A program made the position numbers and the translations under genes. Positions 38,030 to 64,000 of a stretch of 64,000 nucleotides of DNA are shown here, one piece after another; within the stretch, counting starts at the first letter, position 1; every line of letters starts with the position of its first letter. The DNA lies in assembly GCA_030581615.1 (NCBI GenBank), contig JAKTTT010000008.1, positions 248,001-312,000 on the forward strand, written 5' to 3'. This DNA is from Alloascoidea africana (lineage: Eukaryota > Ascomycota > Alloascoideomycetes > Alloascoideales > Alloascoideaceae). Below the pieces are notes generated by a model that saw only the letters and a program-made list of their open reading frames with translations, was not told the DNA's origin and did no database searches.

Positions 38030-40894
38030 ATGAGAAACTTGTTCTGGTGGAACAGCCTTATTGGTTTTCTGCTTGTACTTGTAATCTCTGTTGAAGGAGT
38101 TTTTAAAGATGAAGCATATTCAGTGGATTGGCACAAGGCTCAGATCGGTACGATATCGCCAACGTGGAACAACATTGTCAGGTCGAGAGGTCAATTTACA
38201 GTATTCGGAGATGAAGGAATTCTTTCTAGTATTGATAAAAGCAGTGGCGAAGTAATATGGAGACATTCTGTTTCTTTTGATGTCAAGCATGGCCTATTGC
38301 GTGGAATGGAGACTTTGGAGGAGGGAGAAGAGCTTGTGGCACTGGGCTTGACACACACCTCTGGGACTTATAGCATCGAGGTTTGGAACAGAGGAAAAGG
38401 CACCTTAGTTTGGAGTACCTCTGGCCTGGGAAATATTTTAGATCTACTTGTCCTAAGTGATAACGATCTTGTGGTCACATTGGACACTGGGAAAGTGATC
38501 AAGTATGGAGGTTTTAAAGGCTTAACCAGATGGGAATTGGACTATACCCAAATCCCCGGGAAGATTGTTTCTGCTTCTGCAATTGAATTACAAAATGACT
38601 TTCTTGTCAGTAGTGTGTTACAAAACGAGGATGGAGATTCTTATCTTTTAACGGCGGATGCTTCAAATGGCAAAATCAGTGGCTTGGATGAGATTGGGCA
38701 CTTCTCTATTGTCGGGGTCTATCAATCAACAAAAGCCTTGGTTTTGCGTAACACTTCAGACACTATTGTTATTGTTCTGCTGACAGACGAGGGAAAGATT
38801 TCCAGCAGTAAGATACTTCCATTTAACAGGTTTGAATTGGTTGATGTTGTGAGCTCTGAAACGACAATCGGGTTGGTTTACAAGAGCACGACCAAGGGAA
38901 CAACCAAGGTTGACGTCTACAAAATTGTTGATGATGAATCGTTCGAATTTGCATTTGAAATTCCAGAGAGTTCAGACTTTGGTGCAATTTCATCTAATGG
39001 AGAGCATTACGTCTCTTTATCAAAAGGAGGTGATCTTCTCACTGTATTTTCAGCGGCCTTGGGAAAGTCAATTGACACAAAGCAGTTGAATGCAATAACC
39101 AGAAGCGTTCCTGATCTTCTTTTTGTAGACAAACTGGAAGAATTGGTCAAAGTGGGAGATGAAGATGATGAAAATGCAGACATTAGTGTCAAGATTTCAT
39201 TCATTGCCGGATTTAAAGATGCAGCTTTGGCATTCTACTCTGATGAGAAACTACATTGGATCAAGGAGGAGAGTTTATCTGATATTGTTGCATCGACAGT
39301 TGTCGATATCCCCGATTTGAACAGTGGTTTATCAGCTGAAGAGTTTGATTTTGAGGAGAGTGCCACTTTACTGAGTGCCTATCAGTATCGTATTGTTAAG
39401 CATTGGAATCAATTAACACAATTTCTTAAGGCTTTCCCCGGAAAACTCATTCTCTTTTTGAATGGAGAATTGAAACCCACTGGCAATAACAATATTTTAT
39501 TTGGATTCAGCAAGATTCTGATCGCTGGAACCAGTAAAAACAAAGTAATCGCGATGAGCATTGACAGACAGGGCGAGTTTTTATGGTCTGTCAATGTGGA
39601 CTTTGATATTGCTGGAATTGAGTCTATTGAGAACGATCAAGAAAGAGTCATTTATGTAATTGGTACAGATGGGTCTGTGATAAAGCTCGATGGAATTTCT
39701 GGCGTGCAAATCAACTTGTTCAGCCTGTCGCATAATCTGGATAATACTAGAATAATCGAAACATTAAACGAACCTTCAGTTGGAATTGTTGCCTGGACAG
39801 GCAATAATGAGTTGCTTGTCGTTGAACCTTTTAACGAGATTAAACCTTCAGACGCTATATATCTCTATCATAAAGATTTGGATGGCAAAGCTCTCAATGG
39901 TTATAGCTATTCATCGGCGGGATTGTCTCCAACTTGGACATTTAAAGTGGCGGACAAAGAACAAATTGTTGCGCTTTCTGCAAGAGACCCAAGAGATGTC
40001 AGCGCATCAATTGGAAAAGTTCTAGGCGACAGAACAGTTCTTTATAAATATCTATATCCGAATTTGATCACGTTTGCGGTTACAAATGCAGAGGAAAACT
40101 CATTGACTGTTTACATTTTGGATTCTGTTAGTGGAAGAGTTTTGTATCATACGAAGCACAACGAAGAGCAGGTGGACACTACTCAAAAAGTCAGCATCCT
40201 GTTTGGCGAGCATTGGGTTGTCTACACCTATTTCAGTGATCTTCCTTCAATCGGATCAAAGATTGTTGTTTTGGATCTGTATGAATCGGAAGCCTCAAAC
40301 GTCAGGTTCACAAAAGAGACAGTTTCTTCAAAAGAGGGATATCCTTTACCCCATGTTCTCAAACAGTCATATCTCTCCCCTAGCATAATAGTCTCTCTTG
40401 GTGTCACAAGGTCCAAGTTCGGAGTTACAACGCGTGGAATTCTTGCATCACTGGAAAGTGGAGAGGTGATTATGATTCCAAAACGAATTCTAGATGCCCG
40501 AAGGCCAAGTCTCAAAAACCCCCAAACTGGAGAGGCCAGAAAGCTTACACAGCAAGAAATGGAAGAAGGACTAATTGGTTATGATTCGGTATTGGGGCTT
40601 GACCCGTCAGCGGTGATATCTCATGAACGACGAATAATAAACAGCAAAAGGGGAGCAAATAAGGAATTTTCAATTCCTTCAAATTTGGAGTCTACTTCAA
40701 TCATAATCAGCATTGGCCATGACATATTTGTCACCAGAGTTTCGCCATCGCTACCGTTTGATGTGCTAGGCGAAACCTTTGGCAAGCTCAAGCTGATTTT
40801 TACGATTATCGCGCTGGTCTTCGTAGTTGTAGTAACGAAGCCATTTGTCGACACTAGGATGTTGAAATCTCGGTGGATTATTGAAGATAAATAA
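38030..40894 (+). CDS. EMC1: ER membrane protein complex subunit 1
   Basis: Large lumenal beta-propeller subunit of the ER membrane complex. It has 954 residues, longer than S. cerevisiae Emc1 (about 760). A signal peptide (residues 1-24, LIGFLLVLVISVEGVF) is followed by DEAYSVDWHKAQIG, the usual Emc1 mature start, then PQQ-like repeats (e.g. SSIDKSSGEVIWRH). The conserved C-terminal domain shows SGEVIMIPKRILDARRP and EEGLIGYDSVL, and a single anchor (LKLIFTIIALVFVVVVTKPF) stands near the stop. No intron. FPR2 starts 152 bases downstream. EMC3 elsewhere in the window belongs to the same complex. Confidence 0.95.
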   Translation: MRNLFWWNSLIGFLLVLVISVEGVFKDEAYSVDWHKAQIGTISPTWNNIVRSRGQFTVFGDEGILSSIDKSSGEVIWRHSVSFDVKHGLLRGMETLEEGEELVALGLTHTSGTYSIEVWNRGKGTLVWSTSGLGNILDLLVLSDNDLVVTLDTGKVIKYGGFKGLTRWELDYTQIPGKIVSASAIELQNDFLVSSVLQNEDGDSYLLTADASNGKISGLDEIGHFSIVGVYQSTKALVLRNTSDTIVIVLLTDEGKISSSKILPFNRFELVDVVSSETTIGLVYKSTTKGTTKVDVYKIVDDESFEFAFEIPESSDFGAISSNGEHYVSLSKGGDLLTVFSAALGKSIDTKQLNAITRSVPDLLFVDKLEELVKVGDEDDENADISVKISFIAGFKDAALAFYSDEKLHWIKEESLSDIVASTVVDIPDLNSGLSAEEFDFEESATLLSAYQYRIVKHWNQLTQFLKAFPGKLILFLNGELKPTGNNNILFGFSKILIAGTSKNKVIAMSIDRQGEFLWSVNVDFDIAGIESIENDQERVIYVIGTDGSVIKLDGISGVQINLFSLSHNLDNTRIIETLNEPSVGIVAWTGNNELLVVEPFNEIKPSDAIYLYHKDLDGKALNGYSYSSAGLSPTWTFKVADKEQIVALSARDPRDVSASIGKVLGDRTVLYKYLYPNLITFAVTNAEENSLTVYILDSVSGRVLYHTKHNEEQVDTTQKVSILFGEHWVVYTYFSDLPSIGSKIVVLDLYESEASNVRFTKETVSSKEGYPLPHVLKQSYLSPSIIVSLGVTRSKFGVTTRGILASLESGEVIMIPKRILDARRPSLKNPQTGEARKLTQQEMEEGLIGYDSVLGLDPSAVISHERRIINSKRGANKEFSIPSNLESTSIIISIGHDIFVTRVSPSLPFDVLGETFGKLKLIFTIIALVFVVVVTKPFVDTRMLKSRWIIEDK

Positions 40895-41046
40895 TCAAAT
40901 GTGAAAAAGTTTATAATAATAAAAAACTCGTTAGACTGTTAAACAATAGGCAATATAATAAAGTTCCACGTTTCGTGTTGGCCACGAAGTTTCTTCCAGC
41001 TTCACCCTTCCAACCCCATCCTTTCTCCTACCCATAAACGCAAGAA

Positions 41047-41644
41047 ATGCAAGTGTTCAAATTCTTATTCCCGTTGTTGGCACTCTTAGTGTCCTTGGCT
41101 TTAGCATCTGAAAGTAAAAAAGCTGACAAGGTGAAAATTGGTAAGTTTAATGTATTGCTTTTGCGCAGCGAGAGTTGAAGATTCTAATAGACCAAAAAAG
41201 GTGTCCTTCACAAGGTGCCAGCAGAACAGTGTACCCGCAGAGCAAAGAACGGAGACAGCATCCACGTCCATTACACAGGATCCTTGACTGACGGAACAGT
41301 GTTTGATTCCTCTGTGAAACGAGGCGTTCCTATCAACTTCCAATTGGGCACTGGTAAGGTGATCAAGGGATGGGACCAGGGCATTCTTGGGTATGTTAAA
41401 CGGCTTGGTGTCTATTTTCGTTCAAGAAAGCTTTGCTAAATGATTTACTAATTCTGGCATGTATAGCATGTGTATTGGTGAGAAGCGAAAGCTGACAATT
41501 CCTCCCAGTCTTGGTTATGGAAGTAACGGTGCTGGCAATGTGATCCCACCAGATGCTACTTTGATCTTTACTACCGAGCTCGTTAGTATCGACGGATATA
41601 CTCCTCCTAATGTGGACGCGGAGGCTGGCAAAGATGAGTTGTAG
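41047..41644 (+). CDS. FPR2: ER FKBP-type peptidyl-prolyl isomerase with KDEL
   Basis: FK506-binding prolyl isomerase of the secretory pathway. Three exons: 41047-41140, 41201-41390 and 41467-41644; 153 residues. Exon 1 is a signal peptide ([15 protein letters not shown]) and a short charged segment. The first intron (60 bases) must end in AAG at 41200 to give [15 protein letters not shown]; the TAG 10 bases earlier would shift the frame. The second intron is 76 bases (GTATGT...TATAG, TACTAAT). The FKBP core has [32 protein letters not shown] and [18 protein letters not shown], and the protein ends KDEL, an ER retrieval signal. S. cerevisiae Fpr2 aligns closely (EQCTKKAK...VHYTGSL) but, as I recall, lacks KDEL. 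Confidence 0.93.
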
Positions 41645-41697
41645 TGGTTGCCATCTATATAGTTTATAGTGTGTATGAGTACTAAAAGCTTTGAATG

Positions 41698-41716
41698 TCT
41701 ATCTATCTATCTACCA
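41698..41716 (+). repeat. TCTA microsatellite
   Basis: Four TCTA units (tctatctatctatctacc) in the 118-base spacer between the FPR2 stop and the POF1 ATG. Confidence 0.6.
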
Positions 41717-41762
41717 TCTCATACTCTCTGGCCTGACTAACACACTCACGCCCGCCATCCAA

Positions 41763-42689
41763 ATGTCCAGATATAAGCCGATCCTCTCCAACTTTCTTTC
41801 TTCTGCCTCAGATTTTGAAGTCTTTTACTCTATTGTAAACGGTAAACAGTCATCATCCATAACGAATGACTTTATTAGAGCAAAATCAAATCTCTTTATT
41901 TTGGACTCGTCATTCAACCCTCCTCATAATGCACACAAGTCTTTAGTCAAAACTGCGCTCCGGCACTATGGTAAGCCGTATCAGACTTCTGATTCCCGGG
42001 GATTCCAGGTCACATCTGAGAACTCTGCTGTCCTAATGATATTATCTGTGAAAAATGCAGATAAAACGGTCTCTGTTCCTGCCTCCTTCTCCGATCGAAT
42101 GGAGATGATGCAGCTCGCAGCAAAGAGCTTACACCAAGACATTGGAGGCCTGGATATTGTTGTTGGATTAACAGACCACGCAAAGTTTGTCGACAAGTTC
42201 AATGCCCTTGAAAACTGGCGTGGGAAACATTTAAATTCAGAATTCGGCAAGATTCAAGAATCAATAGTAGCAAACTATTTCTTTTTGACTGGTTTCGATA
42301 CTCTTGTTCGGATTCTGGATCAAAAGTACTACCCTGAACCAATATCGACCGCTCTTTCCAGTTTTATTTCAAAGGCACATCTCTTCGCATTAACCCGGAA
42401 TGAGAACGAGTCGGATTTTAAAGCAAAAGAATACATAGATTTGCAAAAAGGTTATGTTGAAGCAATCAGCAAAGGAGAAATCGATGGCATCCCTAGGGAT
42501 TGGGCCTCTAAAATACAGGTTGTTCCTAATTCCAAAGAATCTTTTAACGTTTCATCTTCGGGAGTTCGAAAGCTGTTCAAAGAGCGCCAAGGACTTTTGA
42601 ACGATGAGATTTACGATCAAGCTTTTTCCAGCAAATTGCCCAAAGACGTTTTTGAGTATATAAAAAGAAACAGTTTATATGATAATTGA
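41763..42689 (+). CDS. POF1: Nicotinamide-nucleotide adenylyltransferase-like Pof1
   Basis: NMNAT-like nucleotidyltransferase; in S. cerevisiae Pof1 is tied to ER quality control and NAD metabolism. The frame opens from a TTG at 41691, but the first ATG is at 41763, giving 308 residues (S. cerevisiae about 258). The nucleotide-binding motif is LDSSFNPPHNAH (residues 47-58), a GxFxPxHxxH variant. DIVVGLTDHAKF, YFFLTGFDTLVRILDQKYY and the C-terminal NVSSSGVRKLF (the (I/S)SSTxxR site) complete the fold. It stands 118 bases after FPR2 on the same strand. EMC1-POF1 are also near neighbours in S. cerevisiae. Its 3' end converges on the regulator gene. Confidence 0.9.
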   Translation: MSRYKPILSNFLSSASDFEVFYSIVNGKQSSSITNDFIRAKSNLFILDSSFNPPHNAHKSLVKTALRHYGKPYQTSDSRGFQVTSENSAVLMILSVKNADKTVSVPASFSDRMEMMQLAAKSLHQDIGGLDIVVGLTDHAKFVDKFNALENWRGKHLNSEFGKIQESIVANYFFLTGFDTLVRILDQKYYPEPISTALSSFISKAHLFALTRNENESDFKAKEYIDLQKGYVEAISKGEIDGIPRDWASKIQVVPNSKESFNVSSSGVRKLFKERQGLLNDEIYDQAFSSKLPKDVFEYIKRNSLYDN

Positions 42690-42835
42690 ATGCAAACAAT
42701 TCAGTTTGTTTGAATACAGGACACAATACAAAATACTACACAATTATTACCGCAAAATCTTATAATATAAGTAGTGTATAACCCTTGGTCATTACATTGT
42801 CTTTGTTACTGGTATCAACATAAAAATTCAAAAAC

Positions 42836-45505
42836 TTACTGAAACATTGATGCAAAAAAATCCTCAAACGTGTCAAATTGAGATAAATCGATAGTTGGTA
42901 AAGAATGAGAGTCAAACTCTACCTGTTCCATTGATATTGCTGTACTTTTATCTCTGTTAACCTCTACAAACTCTCCTTTTCCCGGATCTGCATTTTCTTG
43001 GTAAAGCTCTAGTGGCTCTCTGTGTATATTTGTTTCTCTTTGAGTCTGAATCGCCTCTTGTTTCTTGGGCGTCATACTTGCACTTGGCAAAGTACTGGCA
43101 GATCTTGAAATTCCATTGACATGTTCCAGTTTCGGACGATTTGTGTCTTTGCCTCTTGCGAAATTGGGATTCTGATTAGTGTTGACAGCGAATTGATGTT
43201 GATACTGATCTAGAGGAACCGGTCGCATCTGCGTCTCATTAAAACTGTTGTTATTCGGATTATAGTTGCTTCTGTTATTGTGTCCATTCGTACTGTGAAT
43301 AAAATCAGCATGCCGCAAATACAGCCTCTCTATTTGGTCATTTCTGTCATTAACGACATTATTAAACTGTTCCATCAAAGCCTTGATAATCTTGCCAACG
43401 GTATCTGTTGCATCGTTATTCTTCTCTCCAGCGTGGCTTAAAGTCCAGTAAATTCTAGAAATCAAATTCAGATATAGATGAATATTTTCCTCGTCTTCTT
43501 CTTCGTTTATTTTGTCCTTTTCATCTTCGGTTTTGGTATTGGGGTTATAAGATTTCAGCTCAACCGTGTCAACTTTGCTTTTCTTTCTTTTGAAAGATTT
43601 CATCAACTTCGTATTTACAATTTCAAATAGAGATAAAACCGCATAGACAATCTGATTGAGAGAAAACATAGGGGATCCTTGAATTAGAGAGCTAGGCAGC
43701 GCCAAAAATCCTTCCAAAATGGTGATTGCACTAGTTTTTATCTTCTCTTCCAATTTCAAGACTAGGACATCGTCTTCGCTGGAAGTCCGATCCGATATCA
43801 CGGATAGTGAACTTATGGGAGTGTGTGAGTTTTCGGGACTTGATATAGCAGCTGACTTGTGTTTTAAAAGTAAAATTGTGATTAAGCGTTTGCAAATAAC
43901 CAGATAAGACCAATTAAAGGCAAATTGCAATATATGGCCCTCGTCTTGTGCAAACAGATAGGACCACTTTGAATGCCATTCAGAAAGCGGAGCAAAAGAA
44001 ACTGATTTATCAGCTTCCTCAACCATATGTTTCCTCAGATTATGTGAGTCGGTAAGAGTAGAAACGTTGGAATACAACTCCAGTTCGCTCAATTTGATAA
44101 CATCACCAATCTTTGAACCCGGATACTTGACAGCAAGTCTATACAGCGCAAAGTAATCTGTTGTAATCATAACAGGCCGGCTGCTACCCAAAGCATATTG
44201 GAAATGGCAAGCACACATTGAATTGAAAATTCGTAAAATGTACAGGTGATCAGGGTTAAAGATTTCATTGTTGACAGATTCGTTGATCTTTACAAAGCTG
44301 AAAGAAAGCATCAACTGCTTGATTCCGATTCCAGTCAAAAGCCATGGATCAAATTGTGTCTGCTTTGGTTTTCTAGCCCCGTTGTAGAGTGAAAGATAGA
44401 GAATAGCTTCGACATCATGATCTGTAAGTCTTGTTGTTATCACGCTAACCCCTAGAATGTTTGTGATCATTCGGAATAAGTCCCTCTGTTCCACATTATA
44501 CTTATAATTCTCATCAAAATTCGTAGCTAATAATGAATAAACACAGGATATAAACGGATGAGCTCGAACATATGTTTCATCAATCTCTTTTATGCCTCCG
44601 GGTATGATCCAAAAATGAGATGTTCGTAAAAAAGCTTTTGATAGTTTGAATACCAGCTGTTTGTTCTGCTCAAACCACTGAATGAATTCTTCACATGCTA
44701 TTGTTAAGGGTTCATATGGATCCACTCTCTTGAAAAGATCATAGTCTAGTTGATTTATGATCGATAAAGGCGATATTTCTGAATAGAGATCTAGAAAGTT
44801 CCCAGGTCCTAAATCTGAAAAAATGGGCCTCCTAATAGTGCATCCCGAATTTGGAGACAAAGCTGAAGCGGTGCGTGTATTTTGAACACCAATTCCTGTT
44901 CGAAACCTGGTACCTCTTGTCATGATATTTGTAGAGTGAGCTTCTTCGGATTGGTCGCTGGGAGATACAGAATTGCTCTCTGGGGAATAAGTATTAAGCG
45001 GAGAAACGTTATCCGTATCTGCAATAGATGTATTAGGCTGGATCCCTTCCCAAGTACTTCTTTCTTTTTGCTGAGATTGAGTTCTTGGAAGTATAGCACC
45101 AACAAGTTGCTTCATTTCTTGCTTGATCTCATTTATGCTGTTTTCCATCAATTCCAACCTCCTTGCCAAAATTCCACTAGCCGTATCGCTGGCCTGGGAG
45201 TTTCCAGGAGCTGCAGTTTGCTCGACTCCGGCCGATAAATCAGGCTGACTTATCTTGACACTTAAAGGTCTTTCCGCCGATAGCGAACACTCTAAACGAA
45301 GAACGTTGCATCGGTGACATTTATGATGTAGGTCGTCCCAATCACACCGCGTCTTCAGTTTTCGACAAGTCGCACAGGACAAAGCTCGTCGCTTCTTCTT
45401 TGGCTTGGAACTGGTACTTGATGATTCTCTTTTCCTAGTTGAAGTTGACATTATTTCTGTCTTTGAATGTGGAGAAGCTGCAGTGGTATCACTCGCATTC
45501 GTCAT
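42836..45505 (-). CDS. URC2: Zn2Cys6 transcription factor, URC2 by position
   Basis: An 889-residue fungal zinc-cluster regulator; ATG at 45505. The DNA-binding domain has C44, C47, C54, C63, C66 and C73 with spacing CX2CX6CX8CX2CX6C (CATCRKLKTRC, then KCHRCNVLRLEC), preceded by a lysine/arginine nuclear localisation stretch (KPKKKRR). The middle homology region carries FIQWFEQNKQLVFKLSKAFL and AHPFISCVYSLLATNF. An acidic stretch (DEEDEENIHLYL-like, near residue 665) and an acidic C-terminus (IDLSQFDTFEDFFASMFQ), an activation-domain-like end, follow. Sequence alone does not tell me the target genes. The position between FPR2 (plus) and SPS1 (minus) matches YDR520C, the uracil-catabolism regulator URC2, in order and orientation. 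The name rests on synteny. Confidence 0.75.
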   Translation of the reverse strand: MTNASDTTAASPHSKTEIMSTSTRKRESSSTSSKPKKKRRALSCATCRKLKTRCDWDDLHHKCHRCNVLRLECSLSAERPLSVKISQPDLSAGVEQTAAPGNSQASDTASGILARRLELMENSINEIKQEMKQLVGAILPRTQSQQKERSTWEGIQPNTSIADTDNVSPLNTYSPESNSVSPSDQSEEAHSTNIMTRGTRFRTGIGVQNTRTASALSPNSGCTIRRPIFSDLGPGNFLDLYSEISPLSIINQLDYDLFKRVDPYEPLTIACEEFIQWFEQNKQLVFKLSKAFLRTSHFWIIPGGIKEIDETYVRAHPFISCVYSLLATNFDENYKYNVEQRDLFRMITNILGVSVITTRLTDHDVEAILYLSLYNGARKPKQTQFDPWLLTGIGIKQLMLSFSFVKINESVNNEIFNPDHLYILRIFNSMCACHFQYALGSSRPVMITTDYFALYRLAVKYPGSKIGDVIKLSELELYSNVSTLTDSHNLRKHMVEEADKSVSFAPLSEWHSKWSYLFAQDEGHILQFAFNWSYLVICKRLITILLLKHKSAAISSPENSHTPISSLSVISDRTSSEDDVLVLKLEEKIKTSAITILEGFLALPSSLIQGSPMFSLNQIVYAVLSLFEIVNTKLMKSFKRKKSKVDTVELKSYNPNTKTEDEKDKINEEEDEENIHLYLNLISRIYWTLSHAGEKNNDATDTVGKIIKALMEQFNNVVNDRNDQIERLYLRHADFIHSTNGHNNRSNYNPNNNSFNETQMRPVPLDQYQHQFAVNTNQNPNFARGKDTNRPKLEHVNGISRSASTLPSASMTPKKQEAIQTQRETNIHREPLELYQENADPGKGEFVEVNRDKSTAISMEQVEFDSHSLPTIDLSQFDTFEDFFASMFQ

Positions 45506-45952
45506 ATCGGTTGCTCCGCCTCTTTGACTCAGATACGCTTGCGCTACCGTTGATATCTACCAGTTTTGAAGTAACTGCACTCGGGATATACGGGGTGTTG
45601 AGCCGAGTATGCTGTTCTGTTTAAATTCTCAAGATCCTGACCCAAATGCTCAGTTATTAGTTAGCGGACAACAGGTCAGTGATAGCGCATGCATGCACTA
45701 CTGGCATCACGTGAGAAGGAGAGGAAACCCAAAAAGGAAATGGGGTGTATGGGTGGTTTGAAGATGAATGTGTGAAAGGAGACTTCAAATTAAGAGGCAA
45801 TGACTACGAAAAGCACACTTGTTTGATCACGGTTGGTTTTAAAACTGTAAAGTGTTTAATTGTAATACTTAGTCATCATGTTTATATTTTGAGATTCCAG
45901 GAAGAGTTTGTTGATGGCAAAATTCGGTCAATTAAACACAATTTATGGATGA
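45506..45952. other. Spacer between URC2 start and SPS1 stop
   Basis: 447 bases with the URC2 promoter. It includes ATCACGTGA at about 45706-45714. SPS2, present here on S. cerevisiae chr IV, is absent. Confidence 0.45.
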
Positions 45953-47616
45953 TTATTTTGCCTTTTTGACTTTGATCACTGCTGATGCCAATTCGTTTAC
46001 AATAGATTCTGATATTCCTGGATATCGTTTCTCACATTCAACAACAGCACGTATTAATTCCATAACGGATTCCCTCTCTTCAGGAGTTGAGGCATTCTTC
46101 CTAACCTTTTTTAAGCAATAGATTAGGACAAGCGCTTTGTTCATATTCTGGCGGTTAGTTCCTGTGCTCTCTTTTTGTGCTTTTTCTACTCCTTTTCTGG
46201 TGGAATTGGTTTGCCTCAAGCTTTTCTGTGTTCTGTTCGCCGGAGCTAACTTCAATTTGAAGTTTTGAGCGTTTGCAGATTCTAGAGCACCCAAAGTTGG
46301 TTTTATACAACGAGGGGATCTCTTGAAAACCATAGATATCTTATTTTGTAAATTCGATCGAGACCAATATTTACGTTTAGCCAAGGAAGCTTGGGTTTCT
46401 TTTGGTTCAGGTTGAGGAGTTGAGGGCTTCTCGACTTTTGGTGTAAGTGATTCATGAGAGACGTCTGCTTTATTGTCGATGTTATTGTATGTAAAATTCC
46501 AGACCATATCTTCCTCGTTAATAGTTGAGCTATCGTTATTGCTTGCGAGAAGATCTGGATGCTTAGGGAGAGGAGGCATCTGGCCTGTATAAATTTTCCA
46601 GTTGTCTTTTTCTTTTATCAGAGGCTCTAGGTTTACTCTTTTCTTGATACTTTTAACAAACTTTAAGCCCAGAAGCCGAGTTGCCGTAGGTCGTTTGTTC
46701 GGGTCCTTGATTAGGCAAAATCCAACAAAGCTTTGACAGTTCTTGCTGAAATTGTCTCCTTCTAGAGTAGGAGGTGGTCTTGTTGGTATTAGAACCAGAG
46801 CTCGCATCGGATCTTCATCAACGCACGGAGGAAAGCCAGTCAACAACTCAATAGCAGTGATTCCCAATGACCAGATGTCTGCTTTTTCGTTATAGCCATT
46901 CGCTCTTGTAATCACTTCAGGAGCCATCCAATACGGAGTTCCCACAAAAGTCTTCATCTCTGGTATTGTAGCAGTCATCTCCCCACTAACTCCAAAATCG
47001 CTTAGTTTCACATGTCCTTTAGGCGTCAATAATATATTGGCTGCTTTAATATCTCTGTGAACTTTTTTCTCTGAATGAAGGTACTGCAAGCCTTTAAGTG
47101 TTTCTCTCATGATATAAGCAACGTGGTCTTCTTTCAGAGTGCCATGGCATTTTAACTACAAAGCATGCGATTTAGCAGTGGATCAGCTTAGTTGTTACAC
47201 AAACAATAAGTGCGTACCAGATCAGCACAGGAGCCGCCGCCACAATACTCCATAACAACCCACATGTAGGTATCTTTCATATACGTTCCAATATAACTTT
47301 TGCAAGGCTAGTGGGTTAATCTATATTCTTGTACCCGCTCATACTAAAAACGTACCTTGTAATGTAGGTTGACCTTAGTTGTCTCAGAAAGTTGATTTCC
47401 CGAACTATTACAGAGACGTCATCGGTTGTATCTTCTAGATTGATCACCTTTATAGCCACTACTTCATTGGTTTTCTTATCATAACTGTATTCAAACTGTT
47501 AACGAGAGGTCAAGGCGCTATAAAGATTGACCTTCTTACGCTTTGTAAACATCTCCAAAGTTCCCGCTTCCAACACATTTCTCAATTGTGTATAGTGCGC
47601 TTGGATCGACCTTCAT
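45953..47616 (-). CDS. SPS1: Ste20-type (GCK-III) protein kinase Sps1, four exons
   Basis: Serine/threonine kinase; in S. cerevisiae Sps1 directs spore-wall and prospore membrane steps. Exons on the minus strand: 47616-47540, 47484-47356, 47296-47218 and 47155-45953; 495 residues (S. cerevisiae 490). Introns are 55, 59 and 62 bases with TTAAC or CTAA-type branch sequences. The kinase domain is complete: glycine loop GSGNFG (16-21), K38 in VAIKV, MEYCGGGSCADLL, HRD (128-130), DFG (148-150) and GTPYWMAPEV, with DFGVSGEMTATIPEMKTFVG typical of GCK-III. A basic C-terminal tail follows. Without splicing, only the fragment from Met 111 is seen. Intron 2 must end in AAG. Confidence 0.92.
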
Positions 47617-48194
47617 TCTTGATTATATATGTATTGTTTTTGAATCGCCTCTATTAGCGATATTGCTGCAATTGTATTTGGGAAGCGTTTGTAGATTGGA
47701 TGAGTTGGGCAAAGGAAGAGAGAATATTAATGAGAAATCAAATACAGCCAACAAGTGGCGCTAAATCTCAGGATGTTTGATCAAAGCGTCTCATAGATAT
47801 ACATCATCATCCTTTCCACTAAAATGATTGTACTAAAACATGGCCAGCTACCGAAAAAATTTGAACATTAAATCTGATCACAAATAGAAAGAAAGACAAT
47901 AGCGTCCAAAAAAAAGCCATGTAAATACTTTGCATTAAAATGGAATAAAAAAACTCATATCGTGAGAACAGAAAACTTGAAGAAAAAAAACATAATGGGT
48001 TGGGCTATTCTAACAAAAGCATAGCAAAGAAACCATAATTCAACAAATAACAAGGTGCTGTGTCAAGTCCGTTTAAAGTCTGTGGGAACAATAGATGGAT
48101 AAGGATAAAAAAATGCTGAAGTTTTAACTAAAAAGGACGTGAAAGAATGGAAACACAGGGGGATTTTAATTCACAGCAGAATTGCTCATTCAAA
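47617..48194. other. Spacer, SPS1 promoter and ArfGAP 3' region
   Basis: 578 AT-rich bases with A-tracts (47900-48000). I see nothing else. Confidence 0.5.
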
Positions 48195-51913: not shown

Positions 51914-52667
51914 ATTAGATTTGTTGCAAGATTTTTTAAGAACAGTTTGTTCTTTTGCTTGGGATACAGTTGGGAGAGGGGGGTATTAATTATTACTATT
52001 AAGGAGCTGCTCCAAAACAGACAAAAAAGCAAAAATCAACAGAGTCCAAACCAACAAAAAGAAGAGAAGAGCGGGAGGAGTATTAAAAGGAAATTGAATG
52101 TACAGTTAGTGGGAGAGACTGTTGTTGTACTCAGAAGCTGATGTTGTTGTGGGAGAATCGACAGGTCAAGGGGATATCTAGATTAATGGGTGGAAGGCGG
52201 GTGGCGTCTCTCAGACTCACCATCATCCATCCATTGTTTAGGAGAAGTGATTCAGAATTTGGGATCTGGAAACAACCACCAACTTTCAGCAGGGGAGAGG
52301 CACTGACTGGGGGTCCAAGATTCCTAGTAGTAGTGAAGTGTCGCTAGAGTACGAATTTTTTTTGTATCGTGATTGATTGGAATTTCTGTCAGGACGATAC
52401 TGAAGACTGTGAAGACCATTACATTTAAGAAGCAATGGTCTGAGATGGATAGAAGTGGTTCAGGGTTCACCAAGCTTTACTACATGTCTACAAGATGATT
52501 AAATAGATGATTCGGAATCAAAGATTCTGAAGATTAAAAATTAGATTTTAAGACTCTATTGCAAACAGTATTTTTCCAAAAAATATAAACGCCCAATTTT
52601 TCTTATCCAAAAATCAACAGAAATACACCCATTTTAGCAAACTAATGATTGTTATTGATTTATAACT
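51914..52667. other. Intergenic, ArfGAP promoter and GPI-protein 3' region
   Basis: 754 bases. G-rich, A-poor sequence at 51970-52330 looks like a promoter. Two plus frames (51947-52141, 52141-52347) are unconvincing. Confidence 0.45.
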
Positions 52668-52950
52668 TTAGATAAATAGGGCAAGAGCACCAGCCATGGC
52701 AGCACCGACCATGCCGGGGGCCACGTAAGAGTTAGCAGCTCCGTTTTCTGTCTGCGTGGTAGATCCGTTTGTGTGGTTTGTGTGGTTACCTCTAAATCAT
52801 TTTATTCGTGTTAGTAATGTTACGAATGCCTGTCTATTTACCAGAAGATCAAGTCATTTTTTGTGGAACATACCCATGAGTAGTGGAGTTTCCAGCGGCA
52901 GAGACTGCGGAAATGGCAGCGAGCGCGACAATAACAGACTTGAATTGCAT
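52668..52950 (-). CDS. Small GPI-anchored cell-wall protein, two exons (YDR524C-B / YCL048W-A place)
   Basis: A 66-residue secreted protein that only appears after splicing: exon 1 52950-52874 and exon 2 52791-52668, joined over an 82-base intron (GTATGT...TTTAG). Residues 1-18 are a signal peptide (MQFKSVIVALAAISAVSA). The short mature part is AGNSTTHGGNHTNHTNGSTT-like, with four N-glycosylation sequons, followed by a small-residue omega region (NGAANS) and a hydrophobic tail (MVGAAMAGALALFI). This is a GPI-anchor layout like Ccw12-type proteins in miniature. Neither exon is visible as a long frame. Position and strand match S. cerevisiae YDR524C-B, between AGE1 and SNA2, whose paralogue is YCL048W-A. 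A TATA-like TATAAATA lies upstream at about 53042. Confidence 0.85.
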
Positions 52951-54962: not shown

Positions 54963-55275
54963 ATGCACGCTCAAGATTGGTTCTTGGCCATTGTGGCAAT
55001 CATATTCCCGCCACTAGCAGTCTTTATCAAGAGAGGATTCAGCGCTGACCGTATGTTTCTTGTTGTTCCTTACAATCTCTGGGTCTTATTTAATACGGAA
55101 ATTGCTTCTAATTTGTTGACTGTTTGTAGTCCTTATCAACATAGCTCTCAGTATTCTTGGATTTCTGCCTGGTTTGATCCATGCTTGGTGGATAATTGCT
55201 TCTTTCCCTTACAGTGATTCTAGAGGTCATTACCATCCTGTTGCGAATGGACCTACTTATGGAAGCATTAACTAA
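54963..55275 (+). CDS. SNA2: PMP3/SNA-family proteolipid Sna2
   Basis: A 77-residue membrane protein with two helices; S. cerevisiae Sna2 sits in the vacuolar membrane. Exons 54963-55050 and 55130-55275 join over a 79-base intron (GTATGT...TGTAG). The start MHAQDWFLAIVAIIFPPLAV and GFSADLLINI match Sna2 (MHARDWFLVFIAIFIPPLAV, as I recall). The second helix has ILGFLPGLIHAWWIIASFPY. The tail ends GPTYGSIN, with YGSI matching the sorting tail YGSLA of Sna2. The frame continues past the donor for 55 codons without similarity, so splicing is needed. It is divergent from the GPI-anchored gene at 52950. Confidence 0.93.
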
Positions 55276-56707: not shown

Positions 56708-57682
56708 ATGACTAAGGCATTCCCGATCCAAATAGGCAGGCGCGATACCGCAAACAGACCTGCTCCCGGCGAAGCTCGCGTTCCGTTTGGGCGCAAGAGG
56801 CGCTCCAGCCTGGACTACGCACCTTTCAAAAAACAAAAGCTCTGGTCCTTGAGACAGAGCAGGAAGAATTTTATATGTTTTAACAGAGATAGTAGGGCCA
56901 GCTCGTCGACGGAAGACGAAGATGGCAGCTTTGGTAAATCCTACGTCAGATGGAAGAGGCATAGAGAAAGCCTCCCAGAGTCGCTTCCATCTGCTCCTTA
57001 TGACTATGCTCTGGAAGAAGCCGTGTCAAAGTACAGCGATGATAACGACGATAACGATGAAAATTGCAATTTAAATATGTTTAATGACACGGGTCTTCGG
57101 GCACACAGCCCGGGACCCACCTTCCAGATGCTGTCTGGGGGCGCTGGTCGCGGCAAACACAGGTCTCTGGCCCCCATGAGCGACCGCTGTGCGCGGCAGC
57201 GGTGTTTTGACTACCTGGTGTCGGCGATAGATGAGGCCTGGGCCCGCTACTGCGAGTGCTCCTACGAGGACGAGACTGAAGAGTACAACAACCAGTACAG
57301 CTACGTCCCCAACACGCCCGTCAGCCTGAAGCTCTCGGACGAAGAATGCTCAGAAAACAGCGATTCGGAGCATCAGGAAGAGCAGCTGTCCCCCAGCTCG
57401 GTTTCGTCTGCGAATGCTGCTGGTGCTGACCGAAAGCTAATTCCTGAAAAGTCCTCCATCATGCATCTCCAGCAGTTGAAAGATAAGCTCCTAAAGGCAA
57501 AATACTATCTACAGGATTTTGCCGAGAGCGATAAGATTAAAGATCACATTCGTTTTTGGAAGCGCTGGGATCTGATCAAGTATTCTGCTGTGGAGCTGGT
57601 GGAAGATAACGATGATGATTCAGTCGTTGATGAAGCTCTTGAAAAGCTAGAGTTGGGAAGATACCATGGAGTTTGCTTCTAA
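56708..57682 (+). CDS. Unrecognised protein with a Cys/Trp-rich core domain
   Basis: A 324-residue protein; ATG at 56708. The N-terminal third is basic (GRKRRSSLDYAPFKKQK, a likely nuclear signal) and then Ser/Asp-rich with an acidic patch (DDNDDNDENC). The conserved-looking core is about 157-200: CARQRCFDYLVSAIDEAWAR followed by YCECSYEDETEEY. An amphipathic helix follows (LQQLKDKLLKAKYYLQDF) with FWKRWDLIKYSAVELVED near the end. I recall a fungal domain with an IDEAWARYC-type motif but cannot attach a name or function. The codons are GC-richer than neighbours, especially 57100-57420. A position-equivalent S. cerevisiae gene is not apparent to me. Confidence 0.8.
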   Translation: MTKAFPIQIGRRDTANRPAPGEARVPFGRKRRSSLDYAPFKKQKLWSLRQSRKNFICFNRDSRASSSTEDEDGSFGKSYVRWKRHRESLPESLPSAPYDYALEEAVSKYSDDNDDNDENCNLNMFNDTGLRAHSPGPTFQMLSGGAGRGKHRSLAPMSDRCARQRCFDYLVSAIDEAWARYCECSYEDETEEYNNQYSYVPNTPVSLKLSDEECSENSDSEHQEEQLSPSSVSSANAAGADRKLIPEKSSIMHLQQLKDKLLKAKYYLQDFAESDKIKDHIRFWKRWDLIKYSAVELVEDNDDDSVVDEALEKLELGRYHGVCF

Positions 57683-58319
57683 CTGCCTATTTTTTATTAT
57701 TATTACTACCATTCACTTTGGCCATTCCTTTTTGGATTAACTTATTTGAGGTTTTGATACCATATTCAGCATAAAGGTACACACGTTCTGGTTCATTTTG
57801 TTCAATTCTTTTTTATTACTTTTTTTTCATTATTATTTTGTTATTTGTTGTGGTTCATGATGTTTGTGAGATCCTTGTCTTGTGTACTATGAAAGGAATA
57901 TTCTATTCCTGGTTGGAAAGATTTGAAATTTGAAATTTGAAATTTGCAATTTATTACTTACTATATATGTATGATGACTGGGGGATATATATGCTCTTTG
58001 ATTTGTGTTATCTACATCCTACTAGCTGTAGTTTCTGTATATAGATTAATAACTATATATTTATGTTAAAACACTTTTTGCACTCAAAGTTCTGTTGATT
58101 TTTTTGGTGGTTTGACCAGAGGTCGAATTTAATCATTCATGTTGGTAAAACCACGACAGCCAGCTTGTCTCCACTTCCTTTCTTCTTCTTCTTCTTCTTC
58201 TTCAGTTTAGAGTTGCACACAAGAATTCTAACTTCAGCAAGTCGCTTCTATTTTGAACCTAATTCTCTTTCTGTCACAACCAACCCATCCATTTTTTTAA
58301 GCTTATCCTGTCGTTCTCA
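57683..58319. other. Intergenic, 56708 gene to KAR4
   Basis: 637 AT-rich bases. A GAAATTT-type tandem (about 57925-57950) and a TTC microsatellite (58180-58203) are the only structures. Confidence 0.5.
58180..58203 (+). repeat. TTC trinucleotide microsatellite
   Basis: Eight TTC units in the KAR4 5' leader region, ending TTCAG. Confidence 0.75.
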
Positions 58320-59366
58320 ATGTCGCTCTATTCTGTGCCACCGCCACCCTTGTCAACGCCATTTCAGGACCATCAACAGCATCACCATCACCATCACCAT
58401 CACCAAAACCAAAACCAACAGCAACAACAACAACAGCAGCAGCAGCAACAGCAATACACAAAACACTCCAATGACTACTCAAACAGATACGTGCATTCAA
58501 ACTTATTGCCTCAATCCCATCTCAGAAACATATCCACTCCATTACAGGGCTACCCCAAATTGCAAAAACTCATGACTTTGAAGAAACAGCAGGTCGCAAA
58601 ACATCAATCTCGGCCCTTTGGTGTCCGAGTGCAACCAGAAAATATGGTCGAGACAGTGACGGATTGGATCACGAAGGACAGACTTTGTTTCGATGTGATT
58701 ATGCTTGGGGCGCTTATTGATGACCGAACCATGTATTCGGTTTTCAGCCAACTGCCTATGGAAAAACTATGCTCAAAGCCTGGATACCTTTTCCTATGGG
58801 CATCCACCAGAAACATATCTGTGCTTAGTCAACTTTTGAAAACGGCAGATTTTGGTTGGAAGAAATTTAGAAGAAGCGAGGAGCTCGTTTTCGTTCCAGT
58901 CTCTTCCCATTCAAGCTTCTACCCTGGTGATTCTGTCTTTCAAGACGATGCAATTCTAACTTCCACGCAATGGCACTGTTGGATGTGCATTGTGGGAACG
59001 GTAAGGAGATCCACAGATGGCCATCTAATACATTGCAATGTGGACACAGATTTGCAATTGGAACAACCTCCTTCGTCTCTAGGCATGAACACCATCTCAT
59101 CAGTAAACGCCGTTCCAAATAACATGTATCGCGTCGCGGAAAATTTCTCCAGCTCCACGCGAAGACTTCACATTATTCCTGCACATTTGGGATCTTCTAT
59201 GCCGATCAAAATGCGGCCCGGATGGGTTATCATGAGTCCTGATGTAATGCTTGATAATTTCACTCCTGAGGATTACAAAAGTGAATTGGATCGCGTTGGA
59301 AGAAATTTACCTACTGATATGAGAATTGAGAGCTTGAGACCGAAAAGCCCTCCAGGCAAAGCATAG
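58320..59366 (+). CDS. KAR4: Kar4, MT-A70-family pseudo-methyltransferase
   Basis: Transcription and mRNA-methylation cofactor (METTL14-type) needed in yeast for karyogamy and meiosis. It has 348 residues; ATG at 58320. The N-terminus has a proline run, then a His run (21-28) and a Gln run (about 33-45) coded by CAC/CAT and CAA/CAG repeats. The conserved part has QKLMTLKKQQVAKHQSRPFG, then FDVIMLGALIDDRTMY at about 123, where active MT-A70 enzymes carry DPPW, so catalytic residues are absent, as in other Kar4. KPGYLFLWAST, KKFRRSEELVFVPV and WHCWMCIVGTVRRSTDGHLI complete the family signature. It converges on the methyltransferase gene 60 bases downstream. Confidence 0.95.
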   Translation: MSLYSVPPPPLSTPFQDHQQHHHHHHHHQNQNQQQQQQQQQQQQQYTKHSNDYSNRYVHSNLLPQSHLRNISTPLQGYPKLQKLMTLKKQQVAKHQSRPFGVRVQPENMVETVTDWITKDRLCFDVIMLGALIDDRTMYSVFSQLPMEKLCSKPGYLFLWASTRNISVLSQLLKTADFGWKKFRRSEELVFVPVSSHSSFYPGDSVFQDDAILTSTQWHCWMCIVGTVRRSTDGHLIHCNVDTDLQLEQPPSSLGMNTISSVNAVPNNMYRVAENFSSSTRRLHIIPAHLGSSMPIKMRPGWVIMSPDVMLDNFTPEDYKSELDRVGRNLPTDMRIESLRPKSPPGKA

Positions 59367-59426
59367 CTACTTTTAGGGAGGGTATAATAATTTCTTCTTA
59401 GTATATACTACTTAGGCTTTGGTTGT

Positions 59427-61071
59427 TTATTTTCTTCGGGATGAAGATCTGAGCCATTCCGTTCCACGCTCAAGAGGTTTCAAAAGTCCGTTCTGTTTAG
59501 GCACATATTCGATTCGGTGGGTGCTATTCAAATTCTTCCTCAGTACAATTTGGAAACAGGTTGCTGATCCCTGTCTCGAAGCAATAACGGACCAACCGAG
59601 GAAAAATTCCCAGATTCTAAACCATCGTGTGCCATATTTTTCAATCACTTTTGACCGGTTTGTTTGCCAATTGAGATACCATCTCCATAACGTAGCTGAG
59701 TAATGCACGCCTATGGTGTCAATGCTGGTCACCTCAAATCCGGCTCCTTCAAGTTTGTCAATAACCCATCCAAGAGGTGTCGAGGCATCAGCACCTGGGA
59801 AAATGTACTTGTTCATAAACAACCCCCAAATCAGATCCTCGTACTGCCATGACTTTCTCAATCCAGCATACTGTAAATAAAAAATCCCATCGTCATCCAA
59901 CATGCTATAAACTTGTCGCAAAAATCCCTGGAACTTTCGGATTCCAACGTGTTCCGCCATCTCCAAACACGTAATCTTGTCGTATTTATCTTCGGGAACT
60001 GGGGTATCTCGGTAATCCAAACAGAGCACGCGGGATTGGTCTTCTGAAATTCCCTGACTGTTTAATTGTTCATTGCCATATGCCGTTTGATTACGTCCTA
60101 GCGTTATACCCGTTGCTCTGGCCCCAAACATTTTGGAAGCGTAGGTGACAAGTGTGCCCCAACCACACCCGAGATCCAACAGTCTGTCGCCGGCTTGCAA
60201 GTCAATTTTGTCACAGACGACTCGTAGCTTATTGTCTTGAAGTTCTTCAAGAGTTTCTGCTCTGTTGGGATCCGAGATTAAACCACTGGTATAAACCATT
60301 CGGGGACCCAAAAACCAGTAGTAAAAATCATCACCACGGTCATAATGGCCCCGAACCTGTTCTTCATCTTGGGATTTTGAGTGCATAATCACCTCGGGGA
60401 TCATTTCAAGTAAGAAATACTTGAAAAGCCCCCATGTAAATCGGAAACTTGCCCAGTCGTGTCTATACTCTAACGCATCCAAAGCATCTCCTCTAAAGCT
60501 AACCTCCTCTTTGAAATACAACTCTTGGAATGTTTGCATGGGGATCTTGTTACCGCCTTTGTATTTTTTCGCCAATTTGGCGTCTTTGAATTCAAGATAG
60601 TACTCAACACCACGGTTTGGGAACTTGGCCTTGTCTGTTAAACGCGGTGAGTAGATCGACGTTGCATACCAGAACAAAATCAATATTGGGAATCCGAAAA
60701 TCAAAGTCAAAAAAACCCAGGTTTTCAATCCCAAGCCTAGAATTCTCTTCGTAATGTAATAGGGAATCCCAAGCAACAGAGAAAATAAGAGAAGGTTGGA
60801 AAAATGCCTAGATCCGGCTCCGTCGGCTGGTAGAGGAGCATTTTTAATTGCTGGGTACTAAACAGGCACTCATTAGGTTAGATAGGAAACGGAATGGATC
60901 ATCAACATTGAGGTCTAGAGTCCAGCTCAGTGGGAGGGAGGGGGGCTCATTATTACTACTTACAGCGGTTGTCCGAACTCCACAATCAAACGGAGCACCT
61001 GGAGGTAGAGGTTCATCAGACTTGATAAAGCCAGAAGACCGACGACGGGCTTCGGTTCTTGTTCTCACCAT
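59427..61071 (-). CDS. MTS1: Sphingolipid C9-methyltransferase
   Basis: SAM-dependent enzyme that methylates C9 of the sphingoid base in glucosylceramide; found in many fungi, absent from S. cerevisiae. Exon 1 (61071-60964, 36 residues, MVRTRTEARRRSSGF) joins exon 2 (60857-59427) over a 106-base intron (GTAAGT...TTTAG, CTAAC) to give YPAIKNAPLPADGAG; 512 residues. Two membrane helices near residues 55-105 (FSNLLLFSLLLGIP; WVFLTLIFGFPILILFWYA) place it in the ER. The cyclopropane-synthase-like fold follows: DLGCGWGTLVTYAS (SAM site, about 262), ATGITLGRNQ, CLEMAEHVGIRKF and YFQYAG-type GIFYLQYAGLRK. Exon 2 alone is open only from a TTG, which is not the start. Confidence 0.93.
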
Positions 61072-63317
61072 CTTTCTTGGTTTTTATACCAGTGCTTTGG
61101 AGAGGGCGTGAAGACAAAAAGGCAATCTAGCGAGATGAAGAGAGAAGAGAAAAGAAAAAGAAGAAGAAGAAGAAAGAAAAGATGAGAAGGAGAAAAAGTA
61201 GCAAAAAATAGGGAGAGTAGAATAAATTGCAAATCAGTAAAATTGAGAATTGCTCAAGCAATGAATATAATATATTTTCCAATTCGCCCAGGTGAACTTC
61301 ACAGCTTTTCACTTCAGGGAGTAGCTAAAAGGAGTTGCCGTTTTGGGAAAACGTGCAGGCGTTCCCAGGGGCCCCAGCTGTCATTGAGCTGGAAAAGGCC
61401 GGGTAAAATGGTATTTGGGCATTGAAAATTGTTAAAAGGATGGGCTACGCGGGTTAGTTTACTAGAATGGGTTTTTACTGGTGAAGAAGTTAGAGGATTG
61501 GGACTTGTTATAGAGGGAGGATCTATCCTGTTGATATATAGTGGTGAGCGCGGACGGGAACACCCGGGTGATAATAAAGTTGACAGGTCCTCAATCCTTG
61601 AGGTTGAATACCAGCAAATAGGTGGTTAAACAATCAGGGATAAGTAAAGGATTTGAGGGGAATTAACTTGAGCCAGTTCCTTGGGAATAAACTTGAAAAA
61701 AAAAAAACAGGAAAGCAATTGAAGCCTGTTTTGACATGACCGTGGGACAAAGAAAGACTAAGCCAGCCTCGTTTGTTCACGACCCGGACGACTTCTACCT
61801 AGGCTTTCTTTTTGACCCCTGGAAAACTCTCTGCAAGATTAATGTCCAATCTGGGGTAAACCGCAAAATATTAAAAAAATGACTTGTTGGTCTAGGTAAG
61901 CTAAGCTATGGAGACGCTTTGCTTCGTTCCTACTAATGCTGTCATAAAAAATGACGACACTATGTTCAACTAAAGCATGGGAGATGACCAGACAACCGGT
62001 CACTATCATATCAGTGAGTGAGAAAAGGATAAATGGTCTTGTAGAATAGATTTTGAAAAAACTGTAAACTGTGAATTCCACTACTCAAAAAAGTCCAGAT
62101 TAGGCGCGCTATTTTTTGCCGTAATCAACCAAAGAAATAAAAAATTCCATGACAATCAGGCACAAATAAGAAAAAAATGAACTATAGAAATCCTTTGCTC
62201 GGCACTTAAATAAGAAAAGCCGAGCTAGATTTCCATTAATCCAGGAAAAAGCCAAGAGATCGAACGACCTTTGGAGAAAATCCAACTACTATACGTATCT
62301 CCAAAGGACAAGAAAAGGGCCTGATTTTTATGGTTCAATCAGCTGCTGTCTTTGCAGTCACCCTACGTGAAATAGAACTAACCACTGTCAATATAAACTC
62401 AACGCCAGGGGCAAATACGCAAATACACTTGAAATGGATGTTTCAGGAATCATCATTACAGCTTTTCTTTAACCTTTCAACGTTTTTCTTTCTTTGATCT
62501 CTCATTTTAGAAAGGAAATAAAACTTTATTGGTCGATATTCCAAGTTTTGTGCTCATGTTTAGTAGAATAAATCTTGAACAAGAGCTTTCACCATTGATA
62601 TGGTTTTTGAAAGGCCAAGCATTCCTGATATTTGGAAAACAGCATGCTAATCTCTCACCTATGTGCTCTCTTCCCAGATCTTTCCCCCCAGAACAGCTAA
62701 TTTCCCACCAAAATCTAATGACCTAAATTCTTTATCCTCGCTACGCCCCTCGATGAAAAGCTTACGTCCCGTTTCAAGAACACAGTGGGATATAATCTTA
62801 TGTGCCGAGTTAGAGTTGGCTCAATTTTAAAGTTGTGTAGAATGTGCTCTCCCATCTTGCGGGTTTTTTCCCAAGACATGGAGGCAATAGTACTGCTGGC
62901 CTGTCACACTCGGGGATCAGAAAGCTAAACACGAACGATCGTAGCACCGGGCCAAGACCCACAGAACTCTGACGGCAGAAAACCAGGAAGATTTCACTCA
63001 TTGTTTGCTGGAAACAGAGGGCAGAATGGGGACTCACCCGGAGGGGTGGACGGATGTGTGCGGCTCTGCTGGCAAACCACCTTCTCGTTGCTCACTCTCT
63101 TTTTTCCTCTCCAGGCATCATCACACAACCCGGAACCTGAACACCTTTTCTAACTGTCGTCGCTCGTTACGTTCACGTTTCTCTCCCCTTTCATTTCGTC
63201 TGTTTGGTTTATAGATAGCCTAAACAAGCCATCATCTGTTGGTCTGTTCCCTTTTTTTGCTTCTTTTCGTCCTGCGTCTGTGCTCTCCCTGCAAATAGGT
63301 GTTTATGAGTATCTAGA
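61072..63317. other. Long intergenic region, MTS1 to LRE1
   Basis: 2246 bases. Near MTS1 lies a purine tract (GAA/AAG, 61135-61200). Near LRE1 the sequence becomes CT-rich, which looks like a leader (63090-63300). No supportable gene or tRNA. Confidence 0.45.
61135..61200 (+). repeat. Purine tract, AAG/GAA-rich
   Basis: About 65 bases of nearly pure A/G (agaagaagaagaagaaag core), on the 5' side of MTS1. Confidence 0.6.
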
Positions 63318-64000
63318 ATGACTGCCACAAACTTTCGGCGCCACCAACACCGACGATCCGCAGCGATTTCTGGAGATTTCGACTTGGACCCGTCCTTGCT
63401 GTGCTCGCCTTCGCCTTCGACGCCGACCACGTCCAAGAATGACGGGTCTCTCGCGATTCCACAGACTTCCGGTAACAACGTCATCCCTGATGAGGCCAGC
63501 AGCAGCAACACGACCAAGTCGCACTCGGATCTTTCCACAACGACCAATTCCAACGATGAATCCGTTCTCTCGGATATGGCCTCACTGACAAATTCATCTC
63601 CGTTGTCTTCTGTCGGTGACCAAAACTACTTACGGTCGCCTATGGTTCAGATACCGCCATCTACTCCAACGGCACCTCAAATCTTCACTTCAGTTCCCGT
63701 AATAAACGTGAATGACAAAGAGATTGCAAGGCCGAGCCAGCATAAAGTCTCTCCTTCTTGGTCCACAGGTGACCGTAAGTTCGCTTCCCCTCGAAAGAAT
63801 AATACAGCCAACACAAGGCCAGATGATAAATTTCAAGTATCCATGAAATCGACTCCGTTTCAAATCCCAGAGGCAAAAATAGATTTAGATGAAGCCTTAG
63901 GTGTTACAACCATGTCCCATCGCAGGGTTGAATCTGCTCCAGAATTGGAGGATTTTTTTAAAGATCGTTCTTTTCGTCTTGGGGCAAAGAAAAATGCTAC
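63318..64000 (+). CDS. LRE1: Lre1/Hlr1-type cell-wall regulator, 5' part (runs off right edge)
   Basis: The first 227 codons of a Ser/Thr/Pro-rich protein. Two landmarks identify it: HRRSAAISGDFDLD near residue 12 and SHRRVESAPELEDFF near residue 205. S. cerevisiae Lre1, as I recall it, has HRRSLAISGDFDF and SHRRSESAPPDLE at matching places, plus a preceding INLDDAL equal to IDLDEAL here. Lre1/Hlr1 affect cell-wall glucan and act around the Cbk1 kinase; HRRVES has His at -5 and Arg at -3, the Cbk1 phosphosite pattern. The gene also occupies the syntenic place expected (YDR528W HLR1, YCL051W LRE1). The rest lies outside the window. Confidence 0.85.
   Translation, partial: MTATNFRRHQHRRSAAISGDFDLDPSLLCSPSPSTPTTSKNDGSLAIPQTSGNNVIPDEASSSNTTKSHSDLSTTTNSNDESVLSDMASLTNSSPLSSVGDQNYLRSPMVQIPPSTPTAPQIFTSVPVINVNDKEIARPSQHKVSPSWSTGDRKFASPRKNNTANTRPDDKFQVSMKSTPFQIPEAKIDLDEALGVTTMSHRRVESAPELEDFFKDRSFRLGAKKNA

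Follow-up and report, generated by a model that had tools for sequence, protein, structure and literature searches.

Does a yeast region that interleaves genes divided in Saccharomyces cerevisiae between the left arm of chromosome III (III-L) and the right arm of chromosome IV (IV-R) represent an order that was never doubled, or is it one half of a separate duplication? This question is raised by the block of genes running from EMC1 to KAR4 in the right part of the window, by which we mean the whole stretch of 64,000 nucleotides analyzed here (C8:248001-312000, in a host genome of 23,180,953 bases in 138 contigs). A sequence-only reading of the window had listed EMC1, FPR2, POF1, a Zn2Cys6 factor, SPS1, AGE1, a small glycosylphosphatidylinositol (GPI)-type gene, SNA2, LRE1 and KAR4 as members of this block, and our analysis of open reading frames (ORFs), splicing, and Pfam and PDB matches bore out their presence and their strands. 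It had also placed EMC1, POF1 and KAR4 between and after the IV-R genes, which holds for POF1 and KAR4 and not for EMC1, since the latter is upstream of FPR2. The interleaving of genes divided between III-L and IV-R, in a distant lineage and in an order older than that division, is likewise borne out on the S. cerevisiae map presumed throughout, of which SPB1 (YCL054W) alone is confirmed by a search record. What had to be abandoned is the notion of an unduplicated ancestor: the host genome has a sister region, on contig C33, that includes 10 genes of the presumed block. In our best reading, the window is part of one track left by a separate duplication, and the fuller ancestral gene set emerges only when both tracks are merged. 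We consider it highly probable that the two are sister tracks of a lineage-specific duplication that was followed by gene loss.

A sister region on contig C33

Eight C8 proteins, of which seven are encoded in the window and the eighth immediately to its left, were searched against the whole genome for paralogues. Half of them (AGE1, the LRE1-position protein, a PEX11-like protein and a mitochondrial carrier) yielded a close paralogue, and all four paralogues reside on C33. The sole close paralogue of AGE1 was found at 57.7-61.3 kb (with one faint extra match on C68, 39.9 bits), that of the LRE1-position protein at 69.5-70.1 kb (one faint extra match on C28, 21.8 bits) and that of the PEX11-like protein, whose Pfam PEX11 match of 7e-5 is under the curated cut-off, at 86.0-86.7 kb; the carrier (Mito_carr) matched 116.6-117.7 kb at 548 bits, with the next of 44 further matches at 71.5 bits. 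When every ORF of 60 residues or more in C8:228-372 kb was compared by tblastn with C33:30-120 kb, the outcome was five pairs above 60 bits together with one weak pair in place, the latter being a LQSNRYDMLEEY-motif pair under 60 bits that came from a directed comparison (Table 1); ORFs lying antisense to the AGE1 and carrier genes were left out of the pair count. C8 240-271 kb and C33 117-86 kb share their gene order in inverted orientation, and C8 296-305 kb and C33 58-70 kb do so in direct orientation, implying one inversion between the C8 and C33 tracks. Had 50-60 genes (an estimate) one randomly placed paralogue each, about 0.2 pairs would be expected by chance. As a control, 40 kb of C28 and C36 returned kinase-family matches only for the C8 ORFs and none above 60 bits for the C33 ORFs.

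That C33 might be a second allele or a recent hybrid haplotype was ruled out by the 43-64% protein identity over five clear pairs. A match of 25-35% between C8:353721-358142 and C33:101297-104146 was considered as a pair of retrotransposons and rejected, the C33 side being a SNF2-type helicase; it was left out of the pairs because it joins distant members of a large family off the collinear order.

Complementary gene content of the two tracks

The C33 block comprises, in order, genes for a SPS2/SPS22-type protein (receptor-L domain, 4e-7), AGE1, RBA50 (RPAP1 domains), an LRE1-type protein, SPB1, PBN1, APA1/2, Sos7 (which we take to be the KRE28 family), the PEX11-like protein, KRR1 and MRC1. 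Eight of the encoded proteins (SPS2-like, RBA50, SPB1, PBN1, APA1/2, KRE28/Sos7, KRR1 and MRC1) have no match in C8:248-372 kb, where the best E value was 0.14, i.e. at chance level. Genome-wide searches found no second copy of RBA50 and, for SPB1, one 189-residue FtsJ relative, on C13. No further copy of EMC1, KAR4 or the Zn2Cys6 factor was found in the genome, and the SPS1-type kinase had matches of 42-48% identity to six further kinases, all of them on contigs other than C33 (cut-off of 1e-30, with 107 of 165 candidates scored). FPR2, POF1, SNA2, the GPI gene and the remaining C33 genes have no second copy in the stretches compared, no genome-wide search having been made for them, and the block genes QCR7, CAB1, PRD1 and PDI1/EUG1 went unnoticed in both tracks, no search having been aimed at them.

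Lineage and age of the duplication

The SPB1 tree was built by a quick method, with a midpoint root and no outgroup, from 27 rows (26 of the 120 matches listed among 6623), none of them named Alloascoideales. In this tree the query and the NCBI protein P0121 group with Sugiyamaella, Nadsonia, Trichomonascus and two more rows at a support of 100, and all sampled Saccharomycetales lie within the separate 20 rows; the order names of the rows, Dipodascales and Saccharomycetales, are those that we presume for them. As the host stands with Dipodascales, outside Saccharomycetales, the duplication is not that of S. cerevisiae. Alloascoideales is a plausible order for the host, whose genome measures 23.18 Mb, reads CTG as leucine and stands near Dipodascales in the SPB1 tree; its P450 genes do not lie at the coordinates published for A. 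hylecoeti (PMC6723986), with which the contig numbering may disagree.

In the AGE1 tree (11 rows, 9 of 92 matches), the C8 copy, the C33 copy and P0241 form one clade on a long stem (100/100), within which the C8 and C33 copies pair at 84/86. The approximately unbiased (AU) test rejected the union of P0241 with the window copy (p 0.037) and did not reject that of P0241 with the C33 copy (p 0.25), and a 24-row quick tree left the three unordered among themselves. On the AGE1 tree, the duplication is lineage-specific. Since relics of the lost genes were not detected, the duplication is old.

Origin of the two tracks and alternative explanations

Most likely, a whole-genome duplication (WGD) or hybridization in the host lineage would have yielded the two tracks, on C8 and, at about 55-118 kb, on C33, and after this doubling a different subset of genes would have been lost from each. 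C8 would have retained EMC1, FPR2, POF1, URC2, SPS1, the GPI gene, SNA2 and KAR4, and C33 would have kept SPS2, RBA50, SPB1, PBN1, APA1/2, KRE28, KRR1 and MRC1, with AGE1, LRE1 and the PEX11-like gene surviving on both; the same underlying order would have been doubled independently by the S. cerevisiae lineage into III-L and IV-R. We infer both the whole-genome scale of the event and the loss, as opposed to transposition, of the missing genes. It seems probable to us that this WGD was specific to an early-branching lineage (perhaps Alloascoideales) and independently doubled the block known from baker's yeast, with the LRE1 duplicate kept twice and the other losses being independent.

Several observations nevertheless weigh against duplication and loss on this scale: 1) the doubling has been shown for one region only, of about 60 kb; 2) at a second locus, comprising 20 kb from C28 and 20 kb from C36 that surround a kinase pair with 66% identity, no further orthologous-looking pair was seen; 3) a tblastn search to an E value of 0.5 for relics of the lost genes gave three chance-level matches, none in the expected place; 4) EMC1, SPS1, KAR4 and the Zn2Cys6 factor, i.e. 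4 of the 8 C8 queries, lack a close paralogue, an outcome that is expected under loss and is not diagnostic; 5) among the block genes of C33 lie others, for a Myb protein, a CLC channel and an acyl-CoA dehydrogenase, that are foreign to the presumed block; 6) the LRE1 copies pair weakly (85/56) in a 22-row tree, and in a 57-row quick tree the C33 copy groups with P0008 instead (86), a union that the AU test did not reject (p 0.375).

The first two of these observations would suit a large segmental duplication, of some 60 kb or more but short of the whole genome, as the source of C8 and C33. Circumstantial evidence points the other way, namely that the genome, at 23.2 Mb, far exceeds the 13.17 Mb averaged by yeasts and approaches the 24.15 Mb of Alloascoideales, the candidate order of the host and the yeast order with the highest averages (8732 genes vs. 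5908; PMC12322030), and that Alloascoidales are described as particularly paralogue-rich, with genomic duplication events suggested on that ground (PMC12862490); we view a segmental origin as unlikely. Less plausible still, and in our opinion improbable, is that the window is an unduplicated region of the pre-WGD type in a distant lineage: this would accommodate the interleaving of presumed III-L and IV-R genes as well as the single copies of EMC1, KAR4 and the Zn2Cys6 gene, but it is at odds with C33 being a collinear sister region of complementary gene content. That C8 and C33 are the tracks of the S. cerevisiae WGD itself, in a post-WGD Saccharomycetaceae genome, is scarcely credible, for although both lineages carry this ancestral block in doubled form, the SPB1 tree sets this genome with Dipodascales, off all sampled Saccharomycetales, and the assignment of survivors to a track here is uncorrelated with that to a chromosome in S. 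cerevisiae (13 genes single in both on the presumed map; Fisher p 0.59).

Gene order compared with S. cerevisiae

Set against the presumed IV-R list, each track alone agrees in order and strand, C8 for 7 of 7 shared genes and C33 for 6 of 6. Against the flipped III-L list, the order of C8 holds for the five shared genes and the strand for three, LRE1 and KAR4 being opposite, and the strand in C33 agrees for 3 of 7, with LRE1, SPB1, PBN1 and APA opposite and reversed; KAR4, SPB1, PBN1 and APA here thus differ in strand from their chromosome III counterparts on the presumed map. Given that the five opposite-strand genes adjoin in the presumed III-L list, an inversion on the chromosome III track is the simplest account; LRE1 is misplaced for one single inversion of that track. 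The merged two-track list agrees with IV-R for 11 of 11 genes and with the III-L strands for 6 of 11, and as placement between anchors in the merged list was chosen by hand, the figures for the separate tracks are the ones that count. These comparisons suggest that the chromosome III track of S. cerevisiae was inverted and the chromosome IV track was not. In Wickerhamomyces ciferrii, the locus tags of the LRE1-type gene and SPB1 (BN7_5001 and BN7_4996) are five apart, and in W. mucosus the two are nine apart. Our data also suggest that the III-L/IV-R order is far older than Saccharomycetaceae.

Relation to known yeast duplications

The presumed III-L/IV-R ohnologous block of S. cerevisiae, which stems from the Saccharomycetaceae WGD, shares with the present one its ancestral genes and their order, the split over two tracks and an LRE1/HLR1 duplicate, and differs from it in its lineage, in its losses and in the further duplicates retained (AGE1 here vs. 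APA, SPS2 and GPI in S. cerevisiae). In pre-WGD yeasts such as Lachancea, Eremothecium and Kluyveromyces, the III-L and IV-R genes are likewise interleaved, but within one region, in place of the two regions that they occupy here. David et al. (2026, Curr Biol) are said to describe additional yeast WGDs, which would likewise be lineage-specific; the present lineage may be among them, and the present WGD may already be in print. In the passages covered of the literature on genome duplication in Alloascoidea and Alloascoideales, the block is not shown; a literature search on the S. cerevisiae locus names of the block found nothing, and the passages covered of the ancestral pre-WGD reconstruction leave the block genes unnamed (Gordon et al. 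2009, PMC2675101). One ancestral block doubled independently in two distant yeast lineages would render duplicate retention testable as a replicate, LRE1/HLR1 having been kept twice, and the combined two-track order would give the reconstructed pre-WGD yeast genome a deep outgroup, pointing to the S. cerevisiae track that rearranged.

Genes of the block and their surroundings

Table 1. Block genes and paralogue pairs of the window, with their counterparts on C33.
Feature	Window position	Strand	C33 counterpart (strand)	Identity	Basis
Small ORF	16326-16706	-	91585-91812 (+)	45% over 80 aa, E 1e-16	no Pfam match
LQSNRYDMLEEY-motif protein (weak pair)	18008-19180	-	89683-90783 (+)	34% over 73 aa, 33% over 91 aa, E about 1e-7	
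PEX11-like	22544-23554	-	85459-86691 (+)	43% over 253 aa	
EMC1	38030-40894	+			Pfam EMC1_C 1.2e-65; PDB 6wb9 EMC1; single copy in genome
FPR2-type FKBP	41047-41643 (exons 41047-41140, 41201-41390, 41467-41643)	+			Pfam FKBP_C; FKBP2 among PDB matches
POF1-like nucleotidyltransferase (candidate)	41763-42689	+			Pfam CTP_transf_like 1.5e-5; TIGR00482 3.5e-9, under its cut-off; weak family matches
Zn2Cys6 factor, URC2 position (candidate)	42836-45505	-			Pfam Zn_clus; genome search without paralogue
STE20/SPS1-type kinase with introns (candidate)	45953 to about 47616	-			Pfam Pkinase
BAR-PH-ArfGAP, AGE1 position (candidate)	48195-51913 (intron 51636-51709)	-	57552-61573 (-)	51% over 1125 aa	Pfam; splicing
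Small GPI-type secreted protein, 66 aa spliced	52668-52791 + 52874-52950	-			signal peptide and hydrophobic tail by eye
SNA2 (Pmp3 family)	54963-55275 (intron 55051-55129)	+			Pfam Pmp3 5.9e-22; splicing; stop
LRE1/HLR1-position protein (candidate)	56708-57682	+	68976-70124 (+)	44% over 284 aa	family present across Saccharomycotina
KAR4 (METTL14-type MT-A70)	58320-59366	+			Pfam; PDB METTL14; single copy
Sphingolipid C9-methyltransferase-type, right edge of block	59427-61071	-			Pfam CMAS 1.1e-61

The identities of LRE1, URC2, SPS1, POF1 and AGE1 are candidate assignments from family and position. The first intron of the FPR2-type gene requires an AAG acceptor, picked by homology, and its product ends in KDEL, the endoplasmic reticulum retention signal. 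Pfam searches gave no match for the 66-residue GPI-type protein or for the LRE1-position protein, and for the latter no Saccharomycetaceae name appeared among the best 120 of 141 matches, the candidate set of this family search comprising proteins of up to about 567 residues. For the CMAS-domain gene at the right edge, C9 specificity is our assumption.

The window is without any N, and its genes are of yeast type, several of them with introns. CTG is read as leucine: the SPB1 gene of C33 has 14 CTG codons, of which 8 align to conserved columns (at least 12 of 15 other yeasts in agreement), 7 of these being leucine and 1 isoleucine. These columns do not support an alternative CUG code.

To the right of KAR4 the block stops, and the genes identified in the next 60 kb past the window are those for CDC37, two pyridine nucleotide-disulphide oxidoreductases, one WD-repeat protein, one PITH-domain protein and one Zn2Cys6 factor. 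CFT1 and PIG-F/GPI11, both in the window, form what we believe to be another S. cerevisiae adjacency. The protein with the LQSNRYDMLEEY motif and a DEDEMAMKILEKV tail occurs in the window as two diverged copies with 29% identity, at 18008-19180 (-) and 25109-26302 (+), and a third copy starts at C33:89683. A STT4-type phosphatidylinositol 4-kinase gene (window 10665-15941) and an aconitase gene (C33:98341-100698) occupy matching intervals between anchors; presumably they correspond to the S. cerevisiae neighbors YLR305C and YLR304C, and possibly they represent another split pair. In S. cerevisiae, PEX34 (YCL056C) is situated close to KAR4 and KRR1, and the PEX11-like gene of C33 adjoins KRR1/MRC1; PEX34 might be a shrunken orthologue of this gene.

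Elsewhere on C33, a tRNA endonuclease (SEN2-like), CDC45 and a short-chain dehydrogenase (ERG27-like, weak) are consecutive at 44887-51970; this is another old cluster, whose members we equate with YLR105C, YLR103C and YLR100W of S. cerevisiae. At C36:153045-160859, a CwfJ-type gene, the kinase with 66% identity to its C28 paralogue, and a class I tRNA synthetase are consecutive; we take the kinase to be DBF2-like and the trio to be YGR093W, YGR092W and YGR094W. Finally, the mitochondrial carrier gene of C33 adjoins a mismatch-repair (MLH1-like) gene at 116535-120000, and the two are presumably the counterparts of YMR166C and YMR167W.

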